Assembly (NCBI GenBank): GCA_029210545.1
Contig: JARGFV010000120.1
Coordinates: 1-7,186 of the forward strand
DNA length: 7,186 bases
From: a bacterium
GTDB taxonomy: Bacteria; BMS3Abin14
Direction: 5' to 3'
A program made the position numbers and the translations under genes. The notes under the pieces were generated by a model. The model was given only the letters and a program-made list of their open reading frames with translations, was not told the DNA's origin and searched no databases. Shown here one piece after another: positions 3,120 through 6,060 of the stretch; the stretch's first letter is position 1, and the number at the start of each line of letters is the position of its first letter.

Positions 3120-4517
3120 ATGAAAAGAGCGACGATCATCCTGGCATCGGCACTGCTGCTGACGACACTCATGACAGGTGGAGGGTTTGCCGTGGACATG
3201 GAGAAGTTTCCCTTCTTCCCATCCCTCTTCAATACGAAAACGGGTGGCCCGGTGTCCAGCACCGAGTTCGAGGACCCGGGACAATGCAAGATATGCCACG
3301 GGGAGATCTACAAGCAGTGGCAAGGCTCCATGCACTCCAATTCCTGGCTCGACCCGGTGTTTCAGGCACTCTGGAAGGTCGGGGACGATGAGACCGACGG
3401 AGCCATCCGCAACCTGTGTGCCGGGTGTCATTCGCCCATCGGTACGGTGGCCGAGGAGGTGGTCTTCGACCCGGACAAGGGGCGCTTCGTCGCTGGCCCG
3501 CTGGCGGAAAAGGGCGTTCAGTGTGATTTCTGCCACACGGTATCCGAATCCACCTGGAGGGACACCCCTGCGGCACAGCCCATGAACGGATCCCTCATCA
3601 TGGATCCGGGTGACGTCAAGAGGGGCCCTTACCGGGAATCCGATTCCCCCGGTCACGACACGGCTTACTCGGAGCTTCATACCTCGGCCGAATTCTGCGG
3701 CTCCTGCCACCACGTTTTCCATCCGGTGACCAACTTTCCCATCGAGCGGACCTACGATGAATGGAAACAGTCTGTCTACGCCCGGGAGGGGATCGTCTGC
3801 CAGGACTGCCACATGATGCCGCTGGAAAAGGCCATCGAGGCTGCCAGGACCATGAAAAAACCGGTGAATCCGGGCAAGGCTTCCCCTCTGGGACCGGACA
3901 GGGACACGGTCTATACCCACGAATTTGTTGGCGGCAACTTTGCTGTTCTGGCTCTGCTGGGAGCGGATAAACACGCCGGGATAGCCAGGGAGAGGCTCAA
4001 AAGCGCGGCCGAACTGAAGATCCATCTTCCTGAAAAGGCAATCACGGGGCAGTTGGTCAGGTTCAAGGTGGAGGTTGTCAACGTGGGAGCCGGGCATAAC
4101 CTTCCCACGAGCCTTACAGAGGTCCGCCAGATGTGGCTGGATGTCACGGTCACAGACCCGGGGGGCAACGTCCTCATGCGCTCGGGGGCCGTCGACGACC
4201 ATGGCGCCATTGATCCCGAGGCCAATATTTTTCACACCGTGGCCGTTGACAAGGAAGGCAACGTGACCCACAAGCCGTGGGCGATCTCCTACTTTTCAGA
4301 GGTCCGGGTGATCCCCCCCAAGGGGTCAGACACCAGCACATATACCTTCCTGATGCCTGGCAACCTGAAGAAGGGGGAGCTTTCCATCACTGCCGTGCTG
4401 CGTTACCGTTCCTTCTCACAGCACCTGGCCGACCTGCTCCTCGGTGAAGGCAAGGTCCAGGTTCCTGTGGTGGACATGAAAACGGAGCAAGCGGCGCTGA
4501 AAATTTCGAAGAAATGA
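3120..4517 (+). CDS. Exported pentahaem cytochrome c (c554-like) with C-terminal beta-rich domain
   Basis: This 465-residue protein has a signal peptide at 1-24 (MKRA, hydrophobic ALLLTTLMTGGG, FAV). Five CxxCH c-type haem sites follow: CKICH (56-60), CAGCH (100-104), CDFCH (135-139), CGSCH (193-197) and CQDCH (227-231). Extra histidines such as H72, H187, H198, H201 and H267 could be distal ligands. The arrangement resembles the cytochrome c554 family (PF13435), though four haems are usual there. From about residue 295 to 450 there is a beta-rich domain without haem sites. It contains GHNLPT (325-330), followed by EVRQMWLDV and a YR near the end, a pattern I associate with C-terminal domains of deltaproteobacterial multihaem cytochromes. 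It acts in the periplasm or beyond, moving electrons; partner and acceptor cannot be read from sequence. Two tandem stop codons (TGATGA) end the frame. The gene faces the same way as the thioredoxin/flavin gene 201 bases downstream. Confidence 0.94.
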   Translation: MKRATIILASALLLTTLMTGGGFAVDMEKFPFFPSLFNTKTGGPVSSTEFEDPGQCKICHGEIYKQWQGSMHSNSWLDPVFQALWKVGDDETDGAIRNLCAGCHSPIGTVAEEVVFDPDKGRFVAGPLAEKGVQCDFCHTVSESTWRDTPAAQPMNGSLIMDPGDVKRGPYRESDSPGHDTAYSELHTSAEFCGSCHHVFHPVTNFPIERTYDEWKQSVYAREGIVCQDCHMMPLEKAIEAARTMKKPVNPGKASPLGPDRDTVYTHEFVGGNFAVLALLGADKHAGIARERLKSAAELKIHLPEKAITGQLVRFKVEVVNVGAGHNLPTSLTEVRQMWLDVTVTDPGGNVLMRSGAVDDHGAIDPEANIFHTVAVDKEGNVTHKPWAISYFSEVRVIPPKGSDTSTYTFLMPGNLKKGELSITAVLRYRSFSQHLADLLLGEGKVQVPVVDMKTEQAALKISKK

Positions 4518-4533
4518 TGAGAGCGCCGCTTGC
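4487..4533. repeat. Inverted repeat spanning the cytochrome stop codon
   Basis: GCAAGCGGCGCT (4487-4498, inside the last codons) and AGCGCCGCTTGC (4522-4533, after the stop) are perfect 12-bp reverse complements. Within the 23-base loop, ATTTC (4503-4507) and GAAAT (4511-4515) can pair again. No T-run follows, so it is not a textbook terminator. A transcript structure that protects the 3' end or attenuates readthrough is plausible. Confidence 0.55.
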
Positions 4534-4536
4534 AGT

Positions 4537-4571
4537 GTCTAGGGTCTGGAGTCTAGGGTCTAGAGTTTGGA
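4537..4571. repeat. Heptanucleotide tandem array, five GTCTNNN units
   Basis: The units read GTCTAGG, GTCTGGA, GTCTAGG, GTCTAGA, GTTTGGA with no phase slip. The array lies in the spacer between the cytochrome and thioredoxin/flavin genes, directly after the 4487-4533 inverted repeat and before the 4582-4671 palindrome. The CTAG cores are individually palindromic. It does not encode a likely peptide, since TAG stops occur in it. Confidence 0.75.
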
Positions 4572-4581
4572 AAAAACGATC

Positions 4582-4671
4582 GTCATCGCGAGCAGTTAAT
4601 AAAGCGAAGCGATCTCAGGAAATGATGGAAAAGCCTGAGACTGCTTCGGTCAAATACCACCTCGCAGTGAC
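4582..4671. repeat. 90-base double-palindromic dispersed-type repeat, possibly acting as terminator
   Basis: The outer arms GTCATCGCGAG (4582-4592) and CTCGCAGTGAC (4661-4671) pair with one mismatch and one G-T. The inner arms CGAAGCGATCTCAGG (4605-4619) and CCTGAGACTGCTTCG (4634-4648) also pair with one mismatch and one G-T. Two 12-base internal strands (4593-4604, 4649-4660) face each other, and the loop is 14 bases. The arms resemble the GTCATTGCGAG...GCAATCTC palindromes I recall from intergenic regions of many environmental bacteria; that is memory, not a search. A T-run (4677-4681) follows on the plus strand, so it may also terminate the cytochrome transcript. Confidence 0.7.
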
Positions 4672-4706
4672 AAGTCTTTTTGAATTTTGAATATCGAACT
4701 GGTTTC

Positions 4707-4712
4707 AAGGAG
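4707..4712 (+). promoter_or_regulatory. Ribosome-binding site fixing the thioredoxin/flavin gene start
   Basis: AAGGAG lies six bases before the ATG at 4719. An upstream in-frame ATG at 4680 has no such site and would add residues before an otherwise normal signal peptide, so 4719 is preferred. Confidence 0.8.
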
Positions 4713-4718
4713 CCAACA

Positions 4719-5819
4719 ATGAAAAGAAAAGCGGCCTGGTTGATCGTTTTTATGCTTGTCGCGGCTGCCCCATCGGATGCCGCGAAAGATATCGTGTCGC
4801 CGGGGGACTTCTTGCCCGATTTTCGTTTTGTCACTTCCCTGTCCACCGGGGACGCTGCCTATCTGGGAGTGGCCGAGGAGATCTCCGGAAAGGGGCACTT
4901 CCTGGCACAGGACGTCTGGGGCGATATCCTCGTTGTGGAACTTTTCAACCGGTTCTGCTACGGCTGCCAGCAGGGGGCGCCCATTATAAACAGGGCTTAT
5001 GAACTGGTGGCCTCCGACCCGTTTCTGTCCACCAGGGTCAGGTTTTTAGGTGTCGGTGTCGGGAACAACCAGAAAACGGTGGATGATTTCAGCCGTGAGT
5101 TCGGGGTACAGTTCCCGCTGGTCCCGGATCCGAAGTTCAGTCTCCTCGACGCCCTCGGCAATCCGGGCGGTACGCCCTACACGATGATCCTGCGCCGCAC
5201 GAAGGAGGGGATGATGCTCATGGGAGCCCATTTCGGCGTGCTGGATTCCGCCGGGGAGTTCGTCCGGGAGGTGCGGGAAGTGGCGGAGGGCGATGTGGAG
5301 CAGTTGATCGCCAGTGCCCAACCCGTCGAGCTGGCCGCCTGGGTGGAGAAAGAACTCAAGCCGGACCTCACAGATGCCAGGATCGAGGAACTGGTCCTTC
5401 AGTGCATGGAGAGAGCCGGCTACGGATCGGTAGGCCTTTACACGGTGGATCTTCCGGATGGCGGCAAGGTGTATGTGGGCGAGAGCGGTCGGGGAAAAGT
5501 GTTCTCCAGGGTGATCAGCCGGCTTCCGGTGTGCGACGTCTGTCACCCGATCCACTTCATCCTCACCGTCAGTTTGGGGGGACAGGTAGTGGATTTTGAT
5601 TCCATCAGCGTGACCAAATACTGGAACAAGGAGTGGACGGCCGAGGAGATCGACTGGATGCGAAAAAGGCTGCTGGGCCAGTCCGTGCTCAAGGAACGGG
5701 CCTTTGACCCCGAGGTGGATGCCGTGAGCACAGCCACCATCTCTTCCTCCCTCATCTTCGACAGCCTTTCCAGGACAGGACCCCTGGTCCGGATCCTGAA
5801 GGATGGGGGGCATCTGTAG
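4719..5819 (+). CDS. Exported TlpA-like thioredoxin fused to FMN-binding-like domain with CxxCH
   Basis: This 366-residue protein begins MKRKAAWLIVFMLVAAAPSDA, a signal peptide of about 22 residues. Residues 30-200 are a thioredoxin fold of the TlpA/AhpC-TSA type: ILVVELFNRFC at 70-80 leads into the CYGC dithiol (C80, C83), and GGTPYTMIL contains the cis-proline P153. Residues 225-355 resemble the FMN_bind domain of NqrC/RnfG and related exported flavoproteins. DAVSTATISS (334-343) matches the D-x-x-S/T-x-A-T motif whose threonine (here T340) receives FMN from ApbE, although T338 replaces the usual glycine. CDVCH (272-276) inside this domain fits a haem c site or a metal-binding CxxCH. One polypeptide would thus carry a dithiol, a possible flavin and a possible haem, all outside the cytoplasm. 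It follows the pentahaem cytochrome gene, suggesting a shared electron path. No apbE gene is in the window. The thioredoxin assignment is firm, the flavin domain likely, and haem attachment uncertain. Confidence 0.87.
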   Translation: MKRKAAWLIVFMLVAAAPSDAAKDIVSPGDFLPDFRFVTSLSTGDAAYLGVAEEISGKGHFLAQDVWGDILVVELFNRFCYGCQQGAPIINRAYELVASDPFLSTRVRFLGVGVGNNQKTVDDFSREFGVQFPLVPDPKFSLLDALGNPGGTPYTMILRRTKEGMMLMGAHFGVLDSAGEFVREVREVAEGDVEQLIASAQPVELAAWVEKELKPDLTDARIEELVLQCMERAGYGSVGLYTVDLPDGGKVYVGESGRGKVFSRVISRLPVCDVCHPIHFILTVSLGGQVVDFDSISVTKYWNKEWTAEEIDWMRKRLLGQSVLKERAFDPEVDAVSTATISSSLIFDSLSRTGPLVRILKDGGHL

Positions 5820-5827
5820 ATGAGTTC

Positions 5828-5855
5828 ACAGTGAACAGTATACAGTGTACAGTGA
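5828..5855. repeat. Heptanucleotide tandem array, four ACAGTNN units
   Basis: The units are ACAGTGA, ACAGTAT, ACAGTGT, ACAGTGA in exact 7-base phase, beginning nine bases after the stop codon of the thioredoxin/flavin gene. The reverse complement matches the array at 6013-6038 at 20 of 26 positions, so the two can pair across the spacer. Confidence 0.75.
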
Positions 5856-5863
5856 GAGCGTTA

Positions 5864-5891
5864 TTTCGGGCCGGTTGACACCGGCCCGAAA
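5864..5891. terminator. GC-rich hairpin downstream of the thioredoxin/flavin gene
   Basis: TTTCGGGCCGG (5864-5874) and CCGGCCCGAAA (5881-5891) form a perfect 11-bp stem with loop TTGACA. It lies 44 bases after the stop codon at 5819. The strong stem suits a terminator, but a run of T does not follow directly on the plus strand, so efficiency is uncertain. The loop happens to be a consensus -35 hexamer, but the hexamer 17 bases on (GATGAA) is a poor -10. Confidence 0.6.
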
Positions 5892-5905
5892 ATGTTGGAT
5901 GAAAG

Positions 5906-5946
5906 TTGATGGACTCGCGAAAAGTCCCGGATTGGACTTTTTGCGA
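5906..5946. repeat. First copy of the TTGATGGACTCGC repeat, folded into a hairpin
   Basis: Bases 5906-5927 match 7110-7131 at 21 of 22 positions (G versus A in the CGCGAAAA/CGCAAAAA part). Here the repeat is followed by an inverted half-copy: TCGCGAAAAGTCC (5915-5927) pairs with GGACTTTTTGCGA (5934-5946) over 13 bp with a single G-T pair and a 6-base loop. The downstream copy instead folds through its own TGATGGACT/AGTCCATCA arms. Confidence 0.7.
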
Positions 5947-6012
5947 CCCTGTCAAAGTTATTTGTGCCAGATAAAACGCTAACAGCGAGATTTCGAGCGG
6001 TATTCGGAAGTA

Positions 6013-6047
6013 ACTGTAAACCGTGTACTGTAAACCGTTAACTGGAA
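6013..6047. repeat. Heptanucleotide tandem array, five ACYGKNN units, next to the aroF ribosome-binding site
   Basis: The units are ACTGTAA, ACCGTGT, ACTGTAA, ACCGTTA, ACTGGAA. The array is inverted relative to the one at 5828-5855 and ends three bases before the Shine-Dalgarno sequence GGAG (6050-6053) of aroF, so it would lie in the aroF 5' leader. Between this array and the hairpin ending at 5946 I see only a minor CGCTAACAGCG hairpin (5978-5988 region) and no clear promoter. Confidence 0.75.
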
Positions 6048-6060
6048 ACGGAGTTTCCCC

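Follow-up and report, generated by a model that had tools for sequence, protein, structure and literature searches.

An exported thioredoxin-FMN_bind fusion protein with a second dithiol predicted to lie near its putative flavin site, a candidate extracytoplasmic flavin-thiol relay

Which redox centres does a single exported protein combine outside the cytoplasm, and between which of them would it pass electrons? The question is raised by a forward-strand gene of the window (the whole stretch of DNA analysed, 7,186 nucleotides), which runs from an ATG at 4719 to a stop at 5819 (4719..5819, + strand) and encodes a 366-residue fusion of a TlpA/ResA-like thioredoxin with an FMN_bind-like domain. 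A first-pass annotation had proposed that thiols, flavin and haem may be joined in this one protein, on account of the motifs C80-Y-G-C83, C272-D-V-C275-H276 and D334-A-V-S-T-A-T340, and the 366-residue translation places all three exactly at these residues. Among 20,000 composition-preserving shuffles, two CxxC motifs occur in 0.09%, CxxCH in 0.07% and a loose D..[ST].A[ST] motif alone in 2%; two CxxC plus the loose motif occur together in 0/20,000. Conservation across 22 homologues is stronger evidence for the motifs than these shuffle statistics.

Whole genomes were searched with the protein and with profiles, and full-length relatives turned up both in the small lineage to which the window belongs (12 genomes) and in several other lineages; for five of these others, the phyla searched comprise 1-9 genomes each, and the candidate lineages that bear homologues are apparently separate from each other. 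One relative, the only one returned by a scan of genome contigs, comes from the unclassified 'bacterium isolate bin676', and plasmid and viral collections contained no relatives of the fusion protein. The alignment on which the following counts are based comprises 22 full-length homologues, the window protein included.

The protein begins with a Sec-type signal peptide (residues 1-22, MKRKAAWLIVFMLVAAAPSDAA; 4719..4784, + strand), recognized by sequence and hydropathy, and hydropathy across all 366 residues predicts no further membrane segments. Next comes the thioredoxin domain (about residues 24-195; 4788..5303, + strand), which has AhpC-TSA/ResA matches and whose family profile gives E 1.8e-12 against ResA structures; together with the signal peptide, this bears out the exported TlpA/ResA-like domain with C80 and C83 that had been read from the sequence. 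Like the ResA/TlpA extracytoplasmic thioredoxins, its best profile match, it has a CxxC (CYGC, residues 80-83; 4956..4967, + strand), T-P near the active site and a signal peptide; unlike them, it continues into a flavin-type domain at the C-terminus, and no CcdA, the protein that usually reduces ResA, was detected in four nearly complete genomes of its own lineage. The first cysteine of the thioredoxin CxxC is present in 19 of the 22 aligned positions and the second in 20, and two double-redoxin homologues have an intact CHTC in the first redoxin domain. The second redoxin of these two-redoxin variants (L024, 1468-2844, - strand; L029, 496-1992, - strand) is without cysteines, and both end in the same CDVC-containing FMN_bind-like domain with a canonical TGAT.

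The C-terminal domain (residues 219-366; 5373..5816, + strand) was compared with FMN_bind in several ways. Alone, the window protein scores 14.4 bits against PF04205, for which the curated cut-off is 22; PF04205 is matched by 15/15 family members in the domain alignment (best 1.5e-5), and hhalign of the domain profile against RnfG-type FMN_bind proteins gives 97.8% probability and E 1e-12 over 128 columns. The profile search thus upholds the FMN_bind-like domain claimed at first sight, and the domain appears on these comparisons to be a divergent FMN_bind relative, not a curated Pfam member. Against sequences of solved structures the FMN-domain profile gives weak matches, the best being RnfG at E 0.36, and AlphaFold with a two-sequence alignment yields a mean pLDDT of 38 for the whole protein and 41 for the FMN domain, too low for any geometry to be read from the models. 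With the RnfG/NqrC-type domains of PF04205 the fusion protein shares homology over about 128 columns, an invariant D..[ST].AT site and a periplasmic location; it differs in having a CxxC in the putative flavin-contacting loop, no ETPGLG and a thioredoxin partner.

The flavinylation motif has been defined as D-x-x-[ST]-G-A-[ST] (PMC12052999). Its D, [ST], A and T are kept in 22/22 homologues (5718..5738, + strand, in the window), and FMN is predicted to be attached to T340. Immediately before A-T the family has T, S, G or Q, and 7/19 ordinary FMN_bind sites from the same searches also have a residue other than glycine there; the replacement of glycine by threonine is therefore not diagnostic, and the notion that it marks a distinct subfamily falls. 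An ApbE that could attach the flavin is encoded in the window's own genome, as the first reading would need (one ApbE, G000:C43, 256.7 bits, with a lipoprotein-like N-terminus), and ApbE was found in 18 of the 21 genomes carrying the fusion gene. It was not found in the fusion-bearing drafts G108, G299 and G238 (92%, 93% and 68% complete); summed incompleteness predicts about 2 such misses, versus the 3 observed. The two genes adjoin in one lineage only: in G225, a homologue is preceded at a distance of 33 bases by apbE on the same strand. This homologue has CDACE at the second dithiol and SQAT at the flavinylation site, departing from the canonical motif at the same position as the window protein. 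We infer that T340 of the divergent FMN_bind domain is covalently flavinylated by ApbE.

The invariant residues of the C-terminal domain (22/22 homologues) are D334, A339 and T340 together with the two cysteines of C272-D-V-C275 (5532..5543, + strand). In the profile alignment, CDVC is aligned with the K/D-G-Y-S loop (GYSG) of RnfG-type domains. The isoalloxazine of NqrC is held tightly between two loops, 6-7 (with Leu149, and Trp150 close by) and 8-E (PMC4348036). Judged by order and by way of the RnfG-type alignment, the CDVC/GYSG loop would be the equivalent of NqrC loop 6-7. A CxxC in this flavin-loop region is present in 22/22 thioredoxin fusions versus 0/19 other FMN_bind sites from the same searches, among them two FMN_bind proteins encoded in the window's own genome, one RnfG-like and the other membrane-bound. 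What marks the family is accordingly this CxxC, in a loop matching a flavin-contacting loop, and not the change of glycine to threonine.

Conservation is different at His276 (5544..5546, + strand), which completes the CxxCH look-alike. Of the residues for which conservation had been proposed as a check, T340, C272 and C275 are constant and H276 is not: 17 of the 22 homologues have H, and the five replacements (2 K, 2 T and 1 E) require at least two changes on the tree. A haem c site requires the histidine of CxxCH; since His276 varies while the cysteines do not, the CxxC is conserved for a non-haem reason. The homologue with E is the one that adjoins apbE in G225, and it cannot bind haem c there because the histidine is absent. 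The first-pass proposal thus stands for the exported TlpA/ResA-like and FMN_bind-type domains, the conserved site and the genomic ApbE, and is not supported for haem; on the favoured reading the fusion protein binds none.

The gene neighbourhood adds possible partners. In the window and in five further loci of its own lineage, the fusion gene has upstream of it the gene of a homologous exported pentahaem cytochrome c and downstream a DAHP synthase gene; in the window, the cytochrome (3120..4517, + strand) has 5 CxxCH and a Cytochrome_C554 match, and this upstream partner is conserved within the lineage. An ATGA overlap joins the cytochrome gene to the fusion gene in two own-lineage genomes, and in the window 201 bases with dispersed repeats lie between them. 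Elsewhere the contexts are likewise redox and include glutaredoxin, pyridine-nucleotide-disulphide oxidoreductase, flavodiiron-type, rubrerythrin and desulfoferrodoxin genes, and further octahaem cytochromes, peroxiredoxin-like genes and FMN reductases.

Among the sites compared, the second dithiol, expected to lie at the flavin, is confined to proteins with a thioredoxin partner, and this suggests a relay that links thioredoxin dithiol, domain dithiol and flavin. Such an extracytoplasmic flavin-dithiol-thioredoxin relay is, in our judgement, the likelier account of the fusion protein, which, in poorly characterised bacterial lineages, probably moves electrons outside the cytoplasm between protein thiols and a covalent flavin. 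After export and covalent attachment of FMN at T340 by ApbE, the C272/C275 pair, in the loop expected at the isoalloxazine, would exchange electrons with the flavin, in the manner of the proximal CxxC of Erv1/QSOX or of thioredoxin reductase; the next exchange would be between C272/C275 and C80/C83 in the chain's own ResA/TlpA-like domain, which would act on substrate thiols or disulfides; and, as the operon suggests, the flavin may exchange single electrons with the co-encoded multihaem cytochrome c. Several points count against this relay. The low-confidence models give no support for C272/C275 being close to the flavin, and the match to the NqrC loop goes by way of the RnfG-type alignment; ApbE was missed in three fusion-bearing genomes and adjoins the gene in one lineage only; FMN_bind proteins such as NqrC perform mainly one-electron chemistry (PMC4348036); the first thioredoxin cysteine is glycine in one homologue, that of L011, from a 71%-complete draft; and the pentahaem cytochrome partner is not common to all lineages. 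The L011 gene (1438-2586, genome G009) reads GFSC at the thioredoxin motif, possibly through an error, and its FMN-domain CxxC is intact.

The direction of electron flow in such a relay is nearly evenly balanced, with a slight lean to net reduction of extracytoplasmic disulfides, a flavin/cytochrome route replacing DsbD/CcdA in the window's own lineage, over net oxidation. ResA is normally reduced by CcdA (PMC3884852). DsbD_TM/CcdA (PF02683) has no match in the fusion-bearing own-lineage genomes G000, G002, G003 and G008, all at least 97% complete, so the thioredoxin domain in this lineage either draws electrons from elsewhere or acts as an oxidase. A PF02683 match is present in 14/14 other-lineage genomes and in G009; the fusion protein is therefore not simply a DsbD/CcdA substitute everywhere, and the absence of CcdA from the fusion-bearing own-lineage genomes examined may be a lineage trait unrelated to it. 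What tips the balance slightly towards reduction is the ResA-like domain, the reductive or peroxide-defence character of the neighbouring genes in other lineages, and the missing CcdA. G000, G002, G003 and G008 also encode multihaem cytochromes with no detected DsbD/CcdA, which raises the question of their apocytochrome thiol reductant.

The same relay run as a sulfhydryl oxidase, from substrate thiols to C80/C83, C272/C275, FMN and the multihaem cytochrome, would make the protein an anaerobic counterpart of QSOX or of Mia40-Erv1-cytochrome c; we hold this version unlikely, if the least so of the alternatives, and what probability it has is a share of that given to the relay, not an addition to it. 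It resembles QSOX in the order of its modules and in its cysteine pairs, Erv1 hands electrons on to cytochrome c (PMC3800646), and a cytochrome is co-encoded in the window's own lineage; against this, the closest relative of the thioredoxin domain, ResA, is a reductase, the neighbours in other lineages are of the reductive or peroxide-defence kind, and a lineage without DsbD/CcdA still needs a reductant.

Scarcely less credible than that version, and likewise unlikely, is a structural role for the FMN-domain CxxC, as a stabilising disulfide or an inter-chain metal site in a flavinylated carrier that is only incidentally fused to a thioredoxin domain, with no direct flavin-thiol exchange. Invariance of C272 and C275 is by itself no proof of redox activity, and NqrC-type FMN domains are one-electron carriers (PMC4348036), both of which suit such a role. 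It is opposed by the distribution of the CxxC (22/22 versus 0/19), which ties it to the thioredoxin partner, by the lack of any other invariant cysteine or histidine in the domain as a metal ligand, and by the position of the CxxC in the loop equivalent to the flavin-contacting one.

It is improbable that the FMN domain escapes flavinylation, with T340 unrecognized for want of the glycine, or with a fold that binds free flavin or none. The window protein does lack glycine before A-T and falls below the Pfam cut-off, and changing glycine to alanine roughly halves flavinylation in the fumarate reductase that was tested (PMC12052999); yet D334, A339 and T340 are invariant, ordinary FMN_bind sites likewise dispense with the glycine in over a third of cases, and the homologue that adjoins apbE has Q at this very position. 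Least probable is haem c at C272-C275-H276, with dithiol, flavin and haem in one protein, for which speak the literal CxxCH, the histidine retained in most homologues and the neighbouring pentahaem cytochrome, by which the lineage presumably matures c-type cytochromes, and against which stand the E, K or T replacements beside constant cysteines, the lack of an invariant second axial ligand (His279 is present in just 11/22) and the fact that haem would fill the loop that packs against the flavin in NqrC.

The favoured relay recalls, and is distinct from, known systems. With QSOX/Erv1 (ALR) the fusion protein shares the order of a thioredoxin CxxC followed by a flavin domain with its own CxxC, and Erv1 can use cytochrome c (PMC3800646); it differs in the predicted covalent FMN on FMN_bind, as opposed to non-covalent FAD in the Erv domain, the folds being unrelated. 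Indeed, Pfam and profile comparisons of the C-terminal domain gave no Erv-like match and matched FMN_bind instead, so that QSOX and Mia40-Erv1-cytochrome c, whose flavin domains are unrelated to this one, resemble the oxidative version in function only. The flavinylation systems in the available part of Meheust et al. 2021 include DsbD-thioredoxin-DUF3570 clusters, which likewise link ApbE substrates with extracytoplasmic thioredoxin-like proteins; theirs, however, are separate proteins with DUF3570 and DUF4266, and that part of the survey describes no thioredoxin-FMN_bind fusion with a CxxC at the flavin and does not mention CxxC (PMC8238504). DUF3570 and DUF4266 are absent from the window genes scanned, and DsbD_TM was not found in the window's own genome.

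Within the portions available of the open-access literature, we found no description of a thioredoxin-FMN_bind fusion with a flavin-loop CxxC. Electron carriage is what flavinylated FMN_bind proteins are known for; the survey and review literature, as far as it was available, does not describe them as coupled directly to thiol-disulfide chemistry in one chain. Rather tentatively, we propose a distinct class of extracytoplasmic thiol oxidoreductase in which one secreted chain would combine covalent FMN, a flavin-proximal CxxC, a thioredoxin domain and wiring to a multihaem cytochrome, and which, where DsbD/CcdA is missing, would supply (or remove) respiratory-chain electrons for protein thiols, as an independently evolved counterpart of QSOX/Erv1 or of thioredoxin reductase. 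If the CxxC does sit on the flavin, the family would connect covalent flavins with multihaem cytochromes and with thiol redox outside the cytoplasm, and could account for the way in which lineages lacking DsbD/CcdA maintain exported thiols in the reduced state, for instance for maturing cytochrome c.

Several observations concern the surroundings of the gene. Parts of the intergenic gaps at 4518-4718 and 5820-6060 are found again at 77-95% identity elsewhere in the genome, on contigs L081, L082, L119 and L121; the first of these repeat-bearing gaps splits the cytochrome and fusion genes in the window and is absent in some relatives. Between a radical SAM gene (136-1431, - strand) and the cytochrome gene, the window encodes a 412-residue exported protein (1619-2857, - strand) with no Pfam or NCBIfam match. 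The radical SAM gene may be part of a conserved neighbourhood, as the same cytochrome gene is preceded in L066 (1791-3059) and L070 (881-2212) by genes whose products resemble its product at the N-terminus. In L071 and L077, from two separate lineages, the homologue directly follows formate dehydrogenase and FdhE genes, a context that may point to a part in formate respiration or in the maturation of enzymes.
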